Source: a virus. From it: a stretch of DNA of 38,690 nucleotides. Shown here in pieces: positions 16,387 through 23,087 of the stretch. The first letter of the stretch is position 1, and every line of letters starts with the position of its first letter. A program made the translations under genes and the position numbers. Below the pieces are notes generated by a model. It was not told where the DNA came from. It saw nothing but the letters and a program-made list of their open reading frames with translations, and ran no database searches. Location: the IMG/VR virus record IMGVR_UViG_3300032213_001428, positions 1 through 38,690 of that record. One strand, given 5' to 3'.

Positions 16387-16456
16387 ACTCTATACTAGTC
16401 CTCTATACTGGTGTTGGTGGGGGTCGAATTATACCACGCGTGGGATAGCCTGTCAA
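16387..16456 (-). promoter_or_regulatory. Strong sigma70-type promoter with palindromic spacer (copy 6)
   Basis: TTGACA (16456-16451), 17 bases, TATAAT (16433-16428) with TGG extension, located inside the 3' end of the zinc-ribbon gene. The spacer ends in the perfect palindrome CCACGCGTGG (16434-16443), which could bind a regulator. The leader is a diverged relative with ATAGAGGACTAG before the deacetylase-like gene. Confidence 0.9.
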
Positions 16457-16676
16457 CCCCCTTCCGCTTACCGAGATTGTCTTCGTACTCTTTCTTGATC
16501 ACGGCCCCGCGCTCCTGTTGCGCCCGCTGCACGTCCGCATCCTCCGCACTCTCCCGCGTCGTGAATCGGAAGTCGCAGTGCAAGCAGATGCGGCGACGCC
16601 GGGTGGTGTTGTTCGAATTTTGGTAGGTGGTCGAAACGCTCGTCGTTTCCCCGCATTTGACACAATTCACAGCCAC
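16395..16676 (-). CDS. NrdR-like zinc-ribbon protein (93 aa)
   Basis: Cys5-x2-Cys8 and Cys31-x2-Cys34, with RRRRICLHCDFRFTTRE between and after, match the zinc-ribbon domain of NrdR, the repressor of ribonucleotide reductase genes. The ATP-cone domain that senses dATP in full NrdR is missing; instead a short charged helical tail follows. The start codon is GTG and overlaps datZ by ten bases. As the last gene of the Z operon it might alter host nucleotide-reduction genes, but a general DNA-binding role is as likely. Only the ribbon is firmly recognised. Confidence 0.72.
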   Translation of the reverse strand: MAVNCVKCGETTSVSTTYQNSNNTTRRRRICLHCDFRFTTRESAEDADVQRAQQERGAVIKKEYEDNLGKRKGVDRLSHAWYNSTPTNTSIED

Positions 16677-17230
16677 CCCCCGTCTATACCGACTTCGCGC
16701 ACCACCTCCCGCACCCCCGCTCGAATGCTAAGCGCCGGGTACTGGGCCTCGTACTGCGTCACCATCTGCGCCAGTATCGCCCGCAGCCCATCGAGCACCT
16801 GCCGAGCGTGCGCCCCGACGCCGTTATCCTGCAAGAAGTAGATCGCCTCGATCTGGTCCGCCAGCTTCACGATCATTTCCACCTCAGTCCCCCGGATTTT
16901 GCGGTACGCCCCGGCCATGTCCCGGTCCACCACATCCTCGGCACGCTCCACGATTCCCGGTCCGGCCACCTGCTCCAGTGCCCGTTTGAACGGTGTCGGC
17001 ATGTCCCCCGTGCGCACCTCGATCATGTCGTGCGAGAGCGCCCATTGGACCAGCCGCAGTTGGTTCGAGTCGTGCAGCAGCCCGGTCCAGCGGATGCGGG
17101 CGGCGACGGTTCCGGCGATCACCGCGACGGCGTAGGAATGCTCGGCCAGGGTTTGCTCCCTCGACGTTTGCACGATGTGCCAGCGACGCACGTGGCATGC
17201 CCGGAGTTGTTCGGCTGTAGTGAGTGCCAT
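16667..17230 (-). CDS. datZ: DatZ: HD-domain dATP triphosphohydrolase (187 aa)
   Basis: DatZ removes dATP from the nucleotide pool so that the polymerase inserts Z instead of A. The HD-domain ligands are visible: His31 in AEHSYAV, His67-Asp68 in LSHDMIEV, and Asp125 in KLADQIEAI. RRWHIVQTSREQ before the first His matches the nucleotide-pocket start of YfbR/DatZ-like enzymes. The length is close to known DatZ. I chose the ATG at 17230, one base after the preceding stop, with AGGA about ten bases upstream; the open frame continues upstream but overlaps other genes. The presence of purZ, mazZ and dpoZ in the same operon makes DatZ far more likely than a generic 5'-nucleotidase. Confidence 0.9.
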   Translation of the reverse strand: MALTTAEQLRACHVRRWHIVQTSREQTLAEHSYAVAVIAGTVAARIRWTGLLHDSNQLRLVQWALSHDMIEVRTGDMPTPFKRALEQVAGPGIVERAEDVVDRDMAGAYRKIRGTEVEMIVKLADQIEAIYFLQDNGVGAHARQVLDGLRAILAQMVTQYEAQYPALSIRAGVREVVREVGIDGGWL

Positions 17231-17231
17231 A

Positions 17232-17525
17232 CTAATGGAGTCCTTTTCTATACTGTTTAATAAATACCCCAAACGACTCGCGAGTGTCGCTTGGAAATGC
17301 CCGCATCTGCATGATCTGGTACGCCACCATTTCGAGCGCTGAATTCCACCCGAAAACGTAGGCCAGCTCCGCCTCTCGCACCACATCCTGCTCTATGAAC
17401 GCCCGCAGCTCCTGCACCTCTTCGTGCAACCGATCAATGAGCATTTGTTGGCTTATCATCCCCGACTGGTGCTCCGGGTGCTCCTCGCACCGCTGGCCGA
17501 AATCCTTAATATCGTCGTACTTCAC
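17232..17525 (-). CDS. Unrecognised helical protein (97 aa)
   Basis: The best start is the GTG at 17525, which overlaps the preceding TGA as GTGA and follows GGAGAAGAACGC. The translation begins VKYDDIKDFGQRCEEHPEH and includes LIDRLHEEVQELRAF and ALEMVAYQIMQMRAF. It is likely all-helical. It sits one base before datZ. No family is recognised; the HEEVQEL segment only superficially recalls MazG. Confidence 0.6.
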   Translation of the reverse strand: MKYDDIKDFGQRCEEHPEHQSGMISQQMLIDRLHEEVQELRAFIEQDVVREAELAYVFGWNSALEMVAYQIMQMRAFPSDTRESFGVFIKQYRKGLH

Positions 17526-17689
17526 GCGTTCTTCTCCTTCAACGTCTCGGCATACTGCCAAAGTCTCGCAAGTACGCTCGGCTCTAGCGCCACTACCCTG
17601 TTTTCGTGGTGATTCACGGCCAGCCATATCTGGTAGCCGTCGAAACTGGCGTATACGCCATCGCCTAGGTGTGTCCCATTTTCATCCAT
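17522..17689 (-). CDS. Small conserved-looking phage protein (55 aa)
   Basis: It starts MDENGTHLGDGVYASFDGYQ and contains IWLAVNHHENRVVALEPSV, a motif I recall from small proteins in many phages and mobile elements. The ATG is preceded by GGAGAAGAACA. A small beta-rich domain followed by a helix is likely. Function unknown. Confidence 0.62.
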   Translation of the reverse strand: MDENGTHLGDGVYASFDGYQIWLAVNHHENRVVALEPSVLARLWQYAETLKEKNA

Positions 17690-17915
17690 TGTTCTTCTCC
17701 TCAAACGCGCCGTCTAGCCATGCATCCAGCTTCGCATGGAGCCAAATCCTATTGCGCTCACCAATGGTTTGACCGTTGTCTGTCATCAGTGGGTTTGTCA
17801 GCAAACTTCCGAACCCAGTACTAGAAGAAAATTCAATTTTTTCCAACATTGTTTTGACACCAATATCCCCAATCGGTCTTGATTCAAATTCATTTACCAA
17901 TACTTCTTCGGTCAT
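17682..17915 (-). CDS. Small accessory protein (77 aa), AT-richer region
   Basis: It starts MTEEVLVNEFESRPIGDIGVK and ends GERNRIWLHAKLDAWLDGAF. The ATG overlaps the upstream stop as ATGA and the end overlaps the next gene by eight bases. The base composition is clearly richer in A and T than in the surrounding genes, suggesting recent acquisition. No family is recognised. Confidence 0.55.
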   Translation of the reverse strand: MTEEVLVNEFESRPIGDIGVKTMLEKIEFSSSTGFGSLLTNPLMTDNGQTIGERNRIWLHAKLDAWLDGAFEEKNNG

Positions 17916-18316
17916 GTGTTTTTCTCCTTGAGTTTGGCTTCAATGGCTCTTGCATAATGAACAAATGGTTGATTGCTTAACTCAGCACCAACTCCATAGT
18001 CAGCAAATAAAGCAACCTTCCATATTGCTTCGATTTCTTTGTCCGTCAGCACAACCCATGTGCGCTGTGTCATGGCGTTCACAGCCTTGTCAACGCTGGA
18101 CTGCATCTGCTTTTGCCTGCCATCAATGACTCCACGCTCATAGTCCGAGGCAAACTCTCTCCACGGCTCCTGCACTGGCTGTGCTGGGTAGTTGTTGCTA
18201 CTACAAGCTACACATTCATATAACACCCCTGCTTTGCATTCAGGGCACACCGGCTCCTGCTCTGGCCGTGCCAGCTTGTCCTGCGCCGCTTTTCTTTTGC
18301 TGTCGAAGCCTGTCAT
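17912..18316 (-). CDS. Accessory protein with zinc-finger-like Cys pairs (134 aa)
   Basis: I choose the ATG at 18316 because it shares a base with the previous stop (TAATG). The N-terminus (FDSKRKAAQDKLARPEQEP) is followed by Cys-x2-Cys pairs in PVCPECKAGVLYECVACSSNN, possibly binding one zinc. The C-terminal half has WVVLTDKEIEAIWKVALFA. Proteins with this N-terminus recur as variable accessory genes in phages of Betaproteobacteria as far as I recall. Function unknown. Confidence 0.6.
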   Translation of the reverse strand: MTGFDSKRKAAQDKLARPEQEPVCPECKAGVLYECVACSSNNYPAQPVQEPWREFASDYERGVIDGRQKQMQSSVDKAVNAMTQRTWVVLTDKEIEAIWKVALFADYGVGAELSNQPFVHYARAIEAKLKEKNT

Positions 18317-18537
18317 TACTTCCCCCATATAACTAAACAAACAATCCACACACCAAGCACCATAGTCACGATCGTTAGCAAGGCTTTAAACGTGTCGACC
18401 AAATCGTCCAGTGGGTCGCCCAACTGTGCATCGTTGTAGCCGTTGGCATACGCATCATTGATTTCTTTGATGCGCTGCTGGCGTACAGGGCAGTCTTTGC
18501 CTTGGTCGCACACTCCGTTTGCGTTACAGCAATTCAT
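18316..18537 (-). CDS. Small Cys-rich membrane protein (73 aa)
   Basis: The start MNCCNANGVCDQGKDCP at 18537 overlaps the upstream TGA as ATGA. Four Cys residues sit in the first 16 positions. A charged helical middle is followed by a single membrane span (LLTIVTMVLGVWIVCLVIW) and a short GK end, which places the Cys-rich part on one side of the membrane. A longer in-frame version is less likely because it would overlap two genes. Confidence 0.6.
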   Translation of the reverse strand: MNCCNANGVCDQGKDCPVRQQRIKEINDAYANGYNDAQLGDPLDDLVDTFKALLTIVTMVLGVWIVCLVIWGK

Positions 18538-18632
18538 TTGGCATCCTTCCATGTCCAGCCGAGCAAGCGCTCGGTGTAGGCTTTGGCGTAAATCGTACCT
18601 GCAATCTCGTCTTTCATTTGTATGTCGTTCAT
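18534..18632 (-). CDS. Tiny accessory protein (32 aa)
   Basis: An ATGA at each end couples it to both neighbours. The translation starts MNDIQMKDEIAGTIYAK and ends LLGWTWKDAK. GGAGAAACAAA lies upstream of the ATG. Amphipathic and soluble in appearance. Its precise fit between two coupled genes is the main reason to accept it. Confidence 0.5.
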   Translation of the reverse strand: MNDIQMKDEIAGTIYAKAYTERLLGWTWKDAK

Positions 18633-18895
18633 TTTGTTTCTCCAAGGTTACCCAGTGCGTCCATGATAAGTTCCATGCCCACATTGGGGTTTGAGTGTTC
18701 CCATAAATAAACATCCGCTACCCTTCCGTTATAGTGGAATTGTCTTTTTATGTACCTGTAATTACTTATTTTCACAACAAGCCCATCGCCAACATCCATA
18801 CCCAAGAGTATTTGATCTATGGGAAATCTGCACTCCACCCCTAAGTCTGAAACTACCCGCCCGCCTCTCGGGCCACCAACGCACAGTAGGTTCAT
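18629..18895 (-). CDS. Small accessory protein (88 aa)
   Basis: It starts MNLLCVGGPRGGRVVSDLG and contains KISNYRYIKRQFHYNGRVADVYLW, a beta-rich segment also seen in small phage proteins. ATGA overlaps mark both ends. It lies in the AT-richer accessory stretch of the Z operon. Function unknown. Confidence 0.58.
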   Translation of the reverse strand: MNLLCVGGPRGGRVVSDLGVECRFPIDQILLGMDVGDGLVVKISNYRYIKRQFHYNGRVADVYLWEHSNPNVGMELIMDALGNLGETK

Positions 18896-19131
18896 TTTGT
18901 ACCTCCTACTTTTATAGCGTCAACGTCCGTGCGGTATTCGTCCAATCGAGAGTTAAGTCGAGTGATTCGGGTTACGTTGTAATCGACAATGCTCTGTGTG
19001 TACTCCACCGCAGTCTCTGCCTCTAGCTTCTCAAGGTGCGCGTCGGCCAGTTCAGCGGCGATCATTTCCAGGGGCGTGGGCTTCTTGAAGGGTGCCTTCA
19101 TCAGTTCCATCAACCGTATTTTTTTCATCAT
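18892..19131 (-). CDS. Small coiled-coil-like protein (79 aa)
   Basis: The sequence MMKKIRLMELMKAPFKKPTP is followed by a long helix rich in Glu, Ala and Leu (EMIAAELADAHLEKLEAETA) and SIVDYNVTRITRLNSRLDEY. A coiled coil is likely. Coupled by ATGA at both ends. The T and A rich Lys codons at the start are unlike the neighbouring core genes. No family is recognised. Confidence 0.57.
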   Translation of the reverse strand: MMKKIRLMELMKAPFKKPTPLEMIAAELADAHLEKLEAETAVEYTQSIVDYNVTRITRLNSRLDEYRTDVDAIKVGGTK

Positions 19132-19340
19132 TTCACCACCTTCATTCTTCGGATTTGGTCACTGATCTGGTCTCCGGTCAGCTCCTCGAACAGCTGGAAC
19201 TCGTACTGCTTGGCTACATGCTCCAGCATCGCGTTCCAAATGCGCCGGATGTGGTCCCGGTTCTCGTCGTCCTCGGAGCCCAGCACGCCGCCGAACATTT
19301 CAGCGTAGAACTTCTCGAATTCCTTTTTAGGTTGGTACAT
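19128..19340 (-). CDS. Small acidic protein after mazZ (70 aa)
   Basis: It starts MYQPKKEFEKFYAEMFGGVL and contains NAMLEHVAKQYEFQLFEELT. Predicted helical and acidic. It overlaps the end of mazZ by 14 bases, so it is probably translated along with the Z genes. No family is recognised. Confidence 0.58.
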   Translation of the reverse strand: MYQPKKEFEKFYAEMFGGVLGSEDDENRDHIRRIWNAMLEHVAKQYEFQLFEELTGDQISDQIRRMKVVK

Positions 19341-19827
19341 GGCGCATTATCCTCGTGTTCTCATCCACCTGCCAAGATCGGCCCTCGTTGATCTCCATCT
19401 TCGCTTCGATCGCCGCGTGCACGTCTATACCGTTGTGGTGTGCCACATCGAGCAGCAATATCATCACATCCCCCAATTCTAATGCCGACTTGGGGTTACG
19501 CGCGTATTCACCCACTTCCTCGTAGAGCTTGAGTAGTATATCCGCCGTCGTGCGTTTCGGAAAGTTATCATCAGCCCACCGCGTGATCCTATCCTGTAAT
19601 TGCCGAATGTCGGCACCCCCGCGTTTCTTGTAGGCATTGACTGCACGAACGGCAAGCGCTGCATTCTTGTCACAGTTCGCGAGCACGCCTCGATAGTGGT
19701 GACGAACTTCGAAAGACGCGATGGTAGCGCCATTCGCATCGACAATCTGTGCGTTGTCGATGGGCGAGACTTCCCACGGGAGTTCATTGGTCTCATCCGT
19801 GTGTACTTGCGATTCTACCTGTAACAT
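19327..19827 (-). CDS. mazZ: MazZ: MazG-like nucleotide pyrophosphohydrolase with extra N-terminal domain (166 aa)
   Basis: In known Z phages MazZ converts dGTP (and GTP) to the monophosphate, the substrate of PurZ. The C-terminal half carries the MazG metal site: Glu103-Glu104-x2-Glu107 in LYEEVGEY and Glu117-x2-Asp120 in LELGDV, followed by HNGIDVHAAIEAKM and the terminal NEGRSW typical of this fold. Residues about 15-65 form an additional small domain (PWEVSPIDNAQIVDANGATI then ALAVRAVNAY) of a kind seen alone in phage proteins, so the gene is probably a fusion. The start overlaps purZ by 35 bases. The specificity for dGTP is inferred from context. Confidence 0.88.
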   Translation of the reverse strand: MLQVESQVHTDETNELPWEVSPIDNAQIVDANGATIASFEVRHHYRGVLANCDKNAALAVRAVNAYKKRGGADIRQLQDRITRWADDNFPKRTTADILLKLYEEVGEYARNPKSALELGDVMILLLDVAHHNGIDVHAAIEAKMEINEGRSWQVDENTRIMRHVPT

Positions 19828-20902
19828 ATGCTCTCCAAAGTTGTACTATCTGCTCTTGCGTCTTCACCTCGAACACGTCATCGTAGGACGGCCCGAGCCC
19901 CACCCACCGCACTATAGCCCCAGTGGCGACGATACCATTCACCACGGTGCGCACCTCCACCTCGTCACGGCAGTAATTGAGGAAGTTAAGGAACACCTCA
20001 TTCGCTGCATTATAGCGTATAGCCTCGCGAATTTGCTTATTGCTGAACGTGAACACCCGCCTCGGCAGCTTGGGCACGGTGGTCAGCTCGGTGGGCTGCC
20101 CCAGCTCATCGAAGGAGATTTCGTGCTGGTCCTCGTAGCACGGCCCCGAATATCCCACCAGCACCCCCTCGGCGTCGAACCGGTTGGCCACGCGAATAGG
20201 AAATGTACGACAGGTGCCAATGACACGTAGGTCAGCGCACAACCCCGCGACCGAACCGCCAATGCCGCAGTCGGCCAGGATTTGCCAGACGCTTATATCG
20301 CGGGAGGTGGTGTAGGGATAGAACCCGTGGTACATCGAGAGCCCGTAGCCCTGCGCACCCTCGACGAGGATATAGTGCGCACGCTCTAACGCCTCAGCGT
20401 ACTCCTCGTTGGAGCAGACGTACTGGCTGATCGCGGTCTCGCACGCTCCGGCTATGTTCATATCGTCCGGGTCGCGCCGAATGCGCTGAATCATCGCCGC
20501 GCCTACGCCCTTTTTGGTGGACCCGATCTTCGTCATCGGCCCCGCTTCCTCGGCTATGTGCCGGTCCGTCGCGATCGCCGCGCACGGATGGATGAGAATT
20601 CGCACACCCTGCAGCAGGTCCGCGCAGCTCTCGATCTCGGCGACTAACTGTTCCGGATTGATCACCGAGCCCGGTCCGAGAAGCACCTGCTTCACCGAGT
20701 CCGATACGATGCCGTTGCCCAAGTGCGTGTGCACGAATTTGCGATTCCCCAGTCTCTTGCTCGTGATGTAGGTGTGCCCCGCATTCGGTGCCCACGCCGT
20801 CACTATCGTGTCGGGTCGTGTGTCTTCGGCGATTTTGCCCACGATCAGCCCCTTGCCGGTGCTGCCGTATTGCAAGTCTACTACCATCGTAATTGCTGCC
20901 AT
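19793..20902 (-). CDS. purZ: PurZ: 2-aminodeoxyadenylosuccinate synthetase (369 aa)
   Basis: PurZ condenses dGMP with aspartate using ATP or dATP, giving the precursor that host PurB converts to dZMP. The PurA fold motifs are clear: VVDLQYGSTGKG as the P-loop, NAGHT with the catalytic His, STKKGVG, VEGAQGYGL and HGFYPYTTSRD. At the position of the PurA catalytic Asp (WGDEGKG in PurA) there is Ser14 (YGSTGKG), the hallmark separating PurZ from PurA and allowing a 2-amino purine. The length (369) is shorter than PurA (about 430), as in PurZ. GATAGAGAGAACAG precedes the ATG, and the gene starts 13 bases after dpoZ. Confidence 0.95.
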   Translation of the reverse strand: MAAITMVVDLQYGSTGKGLIVGKIAEDTRPDTIVTAWAPNAGHTYITSKRLGNRKFVHTHLGNGIVSDSVKQVLLGPGSVINPEQLVAEIESCADLLQGVRILIHPCAAIATDRHIAEEAGPMTKIGSTKKGVGAAMIQRIRRDPDDMNIAGACETAISQYVCSNEEYAEALERAHYILVEGAQGYGLSMYHGFYPYTTSRDISVWQILADCGIGGSVAGLCADLRVIGTCRTFPIRVANRFDAEGVLVGYSGPCYEDQHEISFDELGQPTELTTVPKLPRRVFTFSNKQIREAIRYNAANEVFLNFLNYCRDEVEVRTVVNGIVATGAIVRWVGLGPSYDDVFEVKTQEQIVQLWRAYVTGRIASTHG

Positions 20903-20915
20903 AAGTCTGTTCTCT

Positions 20916-22751
20916 CTATCCTTTTGCTGCGTACCAATCTTCCCCTACGCCCCAGTCGCACGTGATTGGTACACGCAGTCGAATAGGACATTCCACACCG
21001 TCGAAGGTCGTGTAGATTCGGGCTACCTCTGTCGCTTTGGGCGACGAATCGTTGTCGAGCGATATCCCCACCTCGTCGTGCACGGTCAGCAGCAACCGCC
21101 CACAGGCCTCGGCGTTGAGGTATTTATGCAGCTCGATGAGTTTTAGCTTCATGCAGTCCGCGCTGGTCGCTTGGTAAATCAACCCCGACGCCTTGTGCAC
21201 GAACTGGCCACCGGGGAACCGCAGTCGCCGCCCCATGATCGAGTGCACCGAACCGCGCTCCTTGGCTATGCTGCTCGCCTTCTGAGCCGTGTTGCGCATT
21301 CCAGGGTTCGCCGCGTGGTATTTATCGAATAGCGCCATCGCCTCGGGTCCGGCCTTGAGGTAGATGTTGTCGTTCGGCCCCTTCTCCTCCGTGTACGGTA
21401 GCCCGCATTCCTGCGCCAACCGGCCCGAGCCCATGTTGAATGCGAGCCCGAGGTTGATCGCCTTGGAGGACGGCCCGCCCGCGTACTGCGCGTTGCGGGG
21501 GATACCGGTCATATCCGATACCAGTTGGTGGAAGTCGAGGTTCGGATTCTCGGCATACGCTTGAAGAATCGTGGGTACCTGACCGTAATGGTTAGCAACG
21601 CGAAATTCAAACTGGCTCCAGTCCAGACCCAGCCAATTGGCCCCAAAGTCTGGCTTGAATATGGGGCGCACCAGCGACTTAATATGCTGATCGCGAGAGG
21701 GGATTTGCTGTAGAGCCGGGTTTGTGATCGAAAGTCGTCCAGTTCCGGTGCCAGCCTCAGCATCGTTCTTAGTCTGGTTGTAATTGCAGTGTATGACGCC
21801 ATCATGTTGGTGCCCCAGTATATGCCCTTTAAGGAATGTATCCCGCGTCTTGAGCGCTTTGCGCAGGTCCAGTATCATCGTTGCCGCCGGATGCTTCATC
21901 CGCCGTAGGCAGTCCGCGTCGATCGAGGCCTTACCCCCATCGGTCTTGTCCGCCCGCGTTCCGTCGTTCAAGTACCACTCGCCGTCCTCGCCCAGCGTCG
22001 GCTTGAATAGCTGCACGATCGAGCCGGAGGGGTTCGGGTTGACCTCGAAGCCTGCCAACGTATTCAGACCCCGCTGCAATTCGTCGATGCGCACGGTGAG
22101 CCCACGGACGGCCCGCTCGGCCTGTTCCACGTCCACCCGTACTCCCTGCTCCTCCATGTCCATAATTACCGGCATGAGGTCGCGCTCCAGTCGGTGCACT
22201 TGGTGCAAGTCTTGCCGTTCGATCTCGGGCGTTTGCCAGTTGTACAGCGCCAGCGTCACTACCGCGTCTTGTATCGCGTAGCGGGCAACCATCGACTCGG
22301 GTGCTCGGCTGATGTTGGGCATCTGCGCGTTGCGCGTCGCACGGCCCCCGAATATCTGCGCCATCTCCGTGTATATCTCCTCCTCCTTTTTCATCCCGCA
22401 GTATTTACGGGCGAGGAAGTCCAGGGTGTACACGGGTTCGTGCTCCGAGATCAGCGCGGCCCGCACCATCGTGCAATCGATACGGTCCAGCGGAATGACC
22501 ACTCCGGCCTCGCGCAGGAAGTGCAGGTCGAATTTAAAATTGTGACCCACCCAAGTATCCACCCGGCGCTCGGCGATCAGGTCGTTGAGCCACTGAATAA
22601 CACCGGGGTCGGTGCGCGCATCCCAATAAGCCGAGAAATCGGGGAGCGCGACGGAAATCCCGAAGAGTCGGTCCTCCCACCACTTCAACCCCGTGGTCTC
22701 GGTGTCCACCACCATCACTGGCGCATGGTCTATTCGGGGGAATGCGGTCAT
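20916..22751 (-). CDS. dpoZ: DpoZ-type family A DNA polymerase with 3'-5' exonuclease (611 aa)
   Basis: The ATG at 22751 overlaps the SSB-like stop (TGATG). The exonuclease domain is intact: Asp16-x-Glu18 (VDTETTG), Asn71 and Asp75 (GHNFKFDL), Tyr158 and Asp162 (YAIQD). The polymerase domain has TGRLS (Arg339), motif A LDWSQFEFR (Asp377), motif B around Lys430 (SSKAINLGLAFNM), and motif C VHDE (Asp559-Glu560). There is no 5'-3' nuclease domain. Compared with Pol I the O-helix differs: Gly for Arg754, Leu for Phe762 and Phe for Tyr766. Being directly upstream of purZ, it is the expected Z-DNA polymerase; known DpoZ enzymes favour Z partly by exonuclease removal of A. Confidence 0.93.
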   Translation of the reverse strand: MTAFPRIDHAPVMVVDTETTGLKWWEDRLFGISVALPDFSAYWDARTDPGVIQWLNDLIAERRVDTWVGHNFKFDLHFLREAGVVIPLDRIDCTMVRAALISEHEPVYTLDFLARKYCGMKKEEEIYTEMAQIFGGRATRNAQMPNISRAPESMVARYAIQDAVVTLALYNWQTPEIERQDLHQVHRLERDLMPVIMDMEEQGVRVDVEQAERAVRGLTVRIDELQRGLNTLAGFEVNPNPSGSIVQLFKPTLGEDGEWYLNDGTRADKTDGGKASIDADCLRRMKHPAATMILDLRKALKTRDTFLKGHILGHQHDGVIHCNYNQTKNDAEAGTGTGRLSITNPALQQIPSRDQHIKSLVRPIFKPDFGANWLGLDWSQFEFRVANHYGQVPTILQAYAENPNLDFHQLVSDMTGIPRNAQYAGGPSSKAINLGLAFNMGSGRLAQECGLPYTEEKGPNDNIYLKAGPEAMALFDKYHAANPGMRNTAQKASSIAKERGSVHSIMGRRLRFPGGQFVHKASGLIYQATSADCMKLKLIELHKYLNAEACGRLLLTVHDEVGISLDNDSSPKATEVARIYTTFDGVECPIRLRVPITCDWGVGEDWYAAKG

Positions 22752-23020
22752 CAGAATGGGATGTCGTCGCTGATGATGCCGTCGCTCGCGTAGCTGCGCG
22801 GCGTGGACGATTGCGGCGCGTCCTTCGGATTGACCTTGACGGAGAAGTACTTCTTGCCCTCCATCCGGCTCCCCGGCTTGCCCTCGTTCACCCACGCCGA
22901 GAGCCAGTAATCGGTGCCCGCGACGTTCAGCGAGCCGGTAAAGTCCGGTTGGCTGTCCTTCTCTTTACGATCATTCCGGGCTAGAATGCCCGAGTTAGTG
23001 TTGTCGTATTGTGTTGCCAT
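22751..23020 (-). CDS. SSB-like small protein with DDIPF tail (89 aa)
   Basis: It opens with YDNTNSGILARNDRKEKDS and PDFTGSLNVAGTDYWLSAW, then KKYFSVKVNPK, a pattern of the DUF736-like small phage proteins. The C-terminus DGIISDDIPF closely resembles the acidic DDIPF tip that bacterial SSB uses to recruit partner proteins. A single-stranded-DNA or polymerase-partner role is thus likely. It is the first gene of the Z operon, with the GAGGACTGCAAATC leader, and is coupled to dpoZ. The OB fold is not proved from sequence alone. Confidence 0.72.
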   Translation of the reverse strand: MATQYDNTNSGILARNDRKEKDSQPDFTGSLNVAGTDYWLSAWVNEGKPGSRMEGKKYFSVKVNPKDAPQSSTPRSYASDGIISDDIPF

Positions 23021-23087
23021 GATTTGCAGTCCTCTATCGGTTGGTTGGTGATGGATGTATTATAACATCCGTGCTATCTATCGTCAA
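23021..23087 (-). promoter_or_regulatory. Z-operon promoter with symmetric -10 region (copy 7)
   Basis: TTGACG (23087-23082), 17 bases, TATAAT (23064-23059) with TGT extension on the minus strand, then the conserved leader with AACCAACCGATAGAGGAC. The -10 sits in the centre of a perfect inverted repeat, GGATGT-TATAAT-ACATCC (23053-23070), an operator-like feature. It should drive SSB-like, dpoZ, purZ, mazZ and the genes down to datZ. Confidence 0.9.

Follow-up and report, generated by a model that had tools for sequence, protein, structure and literature searches.

The stretch of DNA described here (the window) is a single record from the IMG/VR virus collection, 38,690 bases long and derived from an uncultivated virus of bacteria, and its minus strand very probably encodes the 2-aminoadenine (Z) pathway of a tailed phage, complete and of the PurZ type, working as in known Z phages. 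A complete Z-DNA pathway had been claimed from the sequence in an original prediction, and it was upheld here, as PurZ falls in the PurZ clade with the diagnostic Asp-to-Ser change, and DatZ, MazZ-1 and DpoZ keep the specificity residues published for these enzymes (Table 1). Chance cannot account for the gene set, because the matches of PurZ and DpoZ to their NCBIfam models have expect (E) values of 2.5e-98 and 3.3e-237.

We infer the activities of the window enzymes from characterized homologs. On this basis, MazZ would convert dGTP to dGMP, which PurZ would combine with aspartate to form succino-2-amino-dAMP, the phosphate coming from ATP or dATP, and host PurB and host kinases would carry this product on to dZTP. 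In addition, DatZ would destroy dATP, and DpoZ, with help from the single-stranded DNA-binding (SSB)-like protein, would favor dZTP opposite T. The resulting genome would carry Z in place of A and would be resistant to enzymes that read A.

Table 1. Features of the predicted Z gene run and its surroundings, from high to low window coordinate (aa, amino acids; ORF, open reading frame)
Feature	Position	Strand	Length	Basis or remark
UvrD-type helicase	24539-23091	minus		
Z-operon sigma-70 promoter	23087-23059	minus		TTGACG-N17-TATAAT, extended -10 TG; 11/12 match
SSB-like protein, first gene of the operon	23020-22751	minus	89 aa	phrog_7364 SSB 6.9e-15; overlaps DpoZ start
DpoZ, aminoadenine-selecting family A DNA polymerase with 3'-5' exonuclease	22751-20916	minus	611 aa	NF038380, 7pbk, hallmarks, tree
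PurZ, succino-2-amino-deoxyadenylate synthetase	20902-19793	minus	369 aa	NF038379, fold, tree, residues
MazZ-1, (d)GTP diphosphohydrolase	19827-19327	minus	166 aa	domain at residues 72-166; 7ody, PF04447, residues
Conserved protein directly after MazZ	19340-19128	minus	70 aa	in 49/63 PurZ loci
Six small ORFs, variable region between Z genes	19131-17232	minus		mostly not found in relatives
DatZ, dATP triphosphohydrolase (HD domain)	17230-16667	minus	187 aa	phrog_7076, 6zpa, residues
NrdR-type zinc ribbon without ATP-cone	16676-16395	minus	93 aa	PF22811 1.3e-6
Second promoter	16456-16428	minus		perfect TTGACA-N17-TATAAT, 12/12; CACGCGTG palindrome in spacer; upstream of deacetylase-like gene
Class IV-like histone deacetylase superfamily enzyme	16386-15526	minus	286 aa	PF00850 9.9e-26

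Enzymes of the predicted Z pathway

The window PurZ passed the cut-off of the curated NCBI model NF038379 (328.9 bits, cut-off 300), and its best matches among solved structures in the PDB are the PurZ proteins of phages phiVC8 and S-2L. The catalytic Asp13 of PurA is replaced by Ser, while the base-pocket residues are kept; the active-site motif of the window is GSTGKG, as it is in all relatives whose sequence covers the site, compared with GDEGKG in Escherichia coli PurA. Residue alignments, here and for the other enzymes, included 12 isolates, namely S-2L, phiVC8, SH-Ab 15497, and nine more. In a PurZ tree of 50 rows, the window lies within a 46-row PurZ clade (support 99/99) and outside both PurA and PurZ0, the latter forming a branch of its own (97/99). 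A position within true PurA, the outcome named beforehand as telling against the pathway, is thus not what the tree returned. The closest neighbors of the window are metagenomic loci, the nearest of which (L002) has a PurZ 89% identical, and this clade stands apart from the groups of SH-Ab, phiVC8, and S-2L. An AlphaFold model of PurZ (mean predicted local distance difference test score, pLDDT, 77.7) had low values in the active-site loops, which were hence left uninterpreted; its best fold match is S-2L PurZ (7odx; E 5.9e-34, template modeling score 0.83), with PurZ0 ranking only 11th.

DpoZ likewise passed its curated NCBI model, NF038380 (788.7 bits, cut-off 500), and best matches 7pbk in the PDB (4.6e-137). 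It keeps the exonuclease residues D26/E28/D85, the Leu and Phe of motif B, and a phiVC8-like helix-O insertion, as compared with a published account (PMC8599892), and its hallmark sites read DTE, HNFKFD, and RNAQYAGGPSSKAINLGLAFN. Translation likely begins at 22751, rather than at the GTG at 22895. Nomenclature is in conflict here, as the NCBI model matched is that of DpoZ_1 and the PurZ-associated polymerase is called DpoZ-2 elsewhere (PMC12884076). DatZ matches the PHROGs family of dATP triphosphohydrolases (phrog_7076, 2.5e-30) and, in the PDB, DatZ 6zpa best (4.9e-17); it keeps the HD metal site and, in S-2L numbering, R19, W20, I22, P79, K81, and K116 (PMC8065100). Its start is likely the ATG at 17230 and not 17386. 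In the DpoZ and DatZ trees, the window is joined by the same relatives as in the PurZ tree, at support of 100 for DpoZ and 98 for DatZ in the Shimodaira-Hasegawa-like approximate likelihood ratio test.

For MazZ, the best structural match is 7ody, itself a MazZ (7.7e-14), and the protein also matches PF04447. Judged by its residues, it is of the guanine-specific MazZ-1 type, because the metal ligands (Glu34, Glu35, Glu38, Glu50, and Asp53), the guanine-specificity residues Ile56 and Asp60, and Arg83 are all kept (S-2L numbering; PMC8342488); the pocket position N20, which is unique to S-2L, is Phe in the window. Ahead of the MazG-like domain, the protein has about 70 additional N-terminal residues, consistent with the fusions that are frequent in MazZ-1 (PMC8342488). 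From its sequence, this stretch gives the impression of a small phage domain.

Organization of the gene run and alternative explanations

All genes assigned in the window lie on the minus strand. Downstream of the helicase and a promoter come the SSB-like gene, DpoZ, PurZ, MazZ, the 70-aa gene, six small ORFs, DatZ, and the zinc ribbon, and these are followed by a second promoter and the deacetylase-like gene. The layout fits a single transcript, because most neighboring genes of the Z run overlap or abut. Potential terminators inside the operon were in no excess over shuffled sequences. The occurrence of the four enzymes together behind one promoter, as had been claimed, was borne out by the family matches, by this compact run, and by conservation of the promoter, and the SSB-like partner and NrdR-like zinc ribbon named with them were both found. 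The notion of one Z operon stands in part: there is a single run with a promoter at its head, but DatZ lies about 2.1 kb from MazZ, with seven small ORFs of mostly variable cargo in between, and a second promoter follows. In two relatives (L004 and L005), DatZ comes directly after the 70-aa gene. Among 63 metagenomic PurZ loci, MazZ was present in 62 and DatZ in 61, and the ratio of nonsynonymous to synonymous substitution rates (dN/dS) between the window and L002, its closest relative, is 0.04-0.13 over the four Z enzymes.

Several points weigh against a complete and functional pathway in this particular virus. The record is probably a fragment of an incomplete genome, because several assemblies with a related PurZ reach 55-59 kb, compared with 38.7 kb for the window. 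DpoZ alone would not prove Z, since phage phiJL001 has a phiVC8-like polymerase without Z genes (PMC8599892); in the window, the other three genes are present. The third point concerns PurZ residue 277, which is Pro (codon CCC, window 20074-20072, minus strand), giving a loop that reads TTVP. A Thr (TTVT) occupies this place in 63/63 metagenomic relatives and in all 12 aligned isolates, and the L002 codon, ACC, differs from that of the window by one base. The residue corresponds to S-2L T276 at the tip of an aspartate-binding loop that has been called crucial and strictly conserved (PMC8342488). The window PurZ scores above the NF038379 cut-off with TTVP in this place. The claim of intact catalytic residues in all four enzymes, therefore, holds for DatZ, MazZ, and DpoZ and needs a caveat for PurZ, because residue 277 sits in the loop that touches aspartate. 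Whether private to this virus or a product of faulty sequencing, the substitution (T277P) is a caveat for the window genome alone, not for the clade.

Perhaps, then, the pathway is present and the clade makes Z, but the PurZ of the window phage is impaired by T277P, leaving Z poor or absent here. The restriction of TTVP to the window and the importance of the loop tip speak for impairment, as does a small excess, in raw counts, of window-specific over L002-specific PurZ changes (14 vs 6). However, a lone ACC-to-CCC difference in a metagenome assembly is also how an error of sequencing or assembly would look, PurZ has an uninterrupted reading frame, and DatZ, MazZ, and DpoZ are conserved. Relaxed selection on PurZ is unsupported (dN/dS 0.13), and we consider an impaired enzyme improbable. 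We give just as little credence to a partial replacement of A, in which a non-selective host polymerase or a second polymerase would do some of the synthesis. In E. coli, a set of three Z genes that lacked DpoZ replaced a significant share of the adenine in the DNA but left some of it in place (PMC8342488), and a sequence cannot give the level of replacement; on the other hand, the window has DpoZ, DatZ, and MazZ, each of them conserved, and full substitution is what has been described for the characterized Z phages (PMC12884076). Far less probable still is that the synthetase is of the PurA or PurZ0 type and serves ordinary adenine or another route. PurA-family models do match it, but below their cut-offs, the PurA equivalogs very far below (e.g., 84 vs 402 bits), and the Ser at the active site, the well-supported exclusion from PurZ0 and PurA, the PurZ folds as best matches, and the adjoining DatZ, MazZ, and DpoZ all argue against it. 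The complete PurZ-type pathway is, then, the reading that we favor, and with it comes our strong inference that Z would replace A fully in the genome of this virus.

Promoters, zinc ribbon and deacetylase-like neighbor

For promoter conservation, a stretch of 120 bases ahead of each gene was scanned in relatives from the clade, with a threshold of at least 10/12 matches to the sigma-70 consensus, which random 120-nt stretches reach in about 2-6% of cases. A match preceded the SSB-like gene in 35 of 38 relatives, compared with about 4% of random stretches, and no relative had one before PurZ, DatZ, or the zinc ribbon, in agreement with the single promoter that had been claimed for the Z genes. 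The deacetylase-like gene had such a promoter in 42/42 and, therefore, starts a second unit. In the window itself, six perfect TTGACA-N17-TATAAT promoters with an extended -10 TG were found on the minus strand within 16456-9757, at 16456, 14129, 11890, 10858, 10519, and 9785, and a seventh, before the SSB-like gene at 23087, scores 11/12; perfect consensus promoters occur in other viral contigs too. Five of these seven carry the palindrome CACnnGTG at a fixed position in the spacer. It was present in 98 of 169 clade promoters compared with 0/13 in Z-phage isolates and, at the same place, 0/302 in a set of further viral contigs picked because they have promoters of this kind. The counts cannot be treated as independent, as the extended -10 TG itself supplies two of the motif's six fixed letters and the loci of the clade are relatives of one another.

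The zinc ribbon has Cys ligands, an Arg run, and an RFTT motif that are invariant across 17 aligned sequences. The possibility that it is an NrdR repressor was ruled out, as it has no ATP-cone and scores 24.7 bits against the NrdR model, for which the cut-off is 124.65. In NrdR, the arginine run grips DNA phosphates, and D15 and R17 read bases (PMC9110341). A conserved T-Y-Q stands at the D15/R17 positions of the zinc ribbon (placed by eye), and any operator that it has would be new because of this replacement. By its sequence, the protein, which is conserved in the clade, is a candidate DNA-binding regulator in which the residues for reading bases have changed, and we hypothesize that it regulates the CACnnGTG promoters. 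It is tempting to speculate further that the clade runs a Z regulon, in which this NrdR-descended protein reads CACnnGTG as an operator within near-perfect extended -10 promoters, with the deacylase gene among those controlled, although we regard this as unlikely. Such consensus promoters might also offset the greater difficulty of melting a -10 element that consists of Z:T pairs. The promoters bear on how host RNA polymerase opens DNA in which Z:T pairs, with three hydrogen bonds, replace A:T.

The deacetylase-like gene is a clade-specific neighbor and lies outside the core pathway. It occurs in 47/63 PurZ loci (dN/dS 0.12), its Zn ligands, HH pair, and Tyr are invariant across 20 aligned sequences, and it is rare in phage records, with five matches. 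Its model (pLDDT 90) best matches Vibrio cholerae HdaH (9gky) in the PDB and also resembles an HDAC11-like deacylase; the fold and zinc-site residues are shared with these enzymes, whereas the window protein is about 24% identical and is phage-encoded. The claim that it is a Z-pathway enzyme was rejected, given its own promoter, its absence in the L029/L052 lineage, and relatives of about 40% identity in phage loci without Z genes. PurZ-like genes of two other contigs, L143 (18581-19687; 260 kb) and L146 (16344-17453; 51 kb), which have an HDAC-like gene 5-8 kb away, were discarded as a link between deacetylase and Z, being PurA-type adenylosuccinate synthetases with the Asp retained (GDEGKG). 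Elsewhere in the window, positions 1180-1614 weakly match a phage co-chaperonin GroES (phrog_3188, 1.8e-8).

Comparison with known Z phages

Phages with PurZ, MazZ, DatZ, and DpoZ together, including SH-Ab 15497, have been described previously (PMC8342488, PMC12884076). The window is a further member of these four-gene Z phages, and the chemistry is known too. At the DNA level, no record of the phage collection matched the Z region of the window. The collection has 204 records with a PurZ-like protein, all of these proteins less than 60% identical to the window PurZ. The clade comprises at least 44 metagenomic loci with a DpoZ at least 70% identical, and no isolate was found in the collection searched. 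A PurZ search of genome collections revealed no host, only scattered contigs, mostly from metagenome-assembled genomes (MAGs), at 28-51% identity. One 1-Mb contig of a Proteobacteria MAG (L156; UBA6503) has a PurZ-like gene of 33% identity inside a long bacterial contig.

These findings add a broad clade of uncultivated viruses to the Z-DNA phages and provide variants of PurZ, DpoZ, MazZ, and DatZ for laboratory Z-DNA, with identities of no more than about 48% to the enzymes of cultivated phages. In addition, the clade possibly has extra lifestyle components, in the form of a deacetylase-like enzyme, an NrdR-derived zinc ribbon, and a family of palindrome-marked promoters.

The PurZ0 phages, such as Gordonia phage Ghobes and Arthrobacter phage Glenn, are Z-DNA phages too and have a PurZ-like enzyme, but they form a separate branch, to which the window does not belong, and have DutZ and DmtZ as partners (PMC12884076). 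The SH-Ab 15497 group (Acinetobacter SH-Ab 15497, Klebsiella K21lambda1, Pseudomonas PSA28, and Providencia Kokobel2) shares the four Z enzymes and SSB with the window, and a helicase is annotated in several of its members. Its gene order is helicase-DpoZ-SSB-PurZ-MazZ-DatZ, whereas in the window SSB precedes DpoZ; identity is about 46-48% for PurZ and about 44-48% for DpoZ, MazZ of the group has other fused domains, and the variable small-ORF region is a feature of the window. No deacetylase was found in phages of this group, and no NrdR zinc ribbon in the regions of the 12 isolates. S-2L, whose Z cluster is purZ-mazZ-datZ, resembles the window in having a MazZ-1 with I56 and D60 and in providing the best structural match of PurZ. 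It differs in that its MazZ is without the N-terminal fusion and a non-selective PrimPol takes the place of DpoZ (PMC8065100). Vibrio phage phiVC8, like the window, has PurZ, DatZ, and a DpoZ with the characteristic insertion and the Leu/Phe motif B, and it differs in its MazZ, which is of the MazZ-2 type, compared with MazZ-1 in the window.

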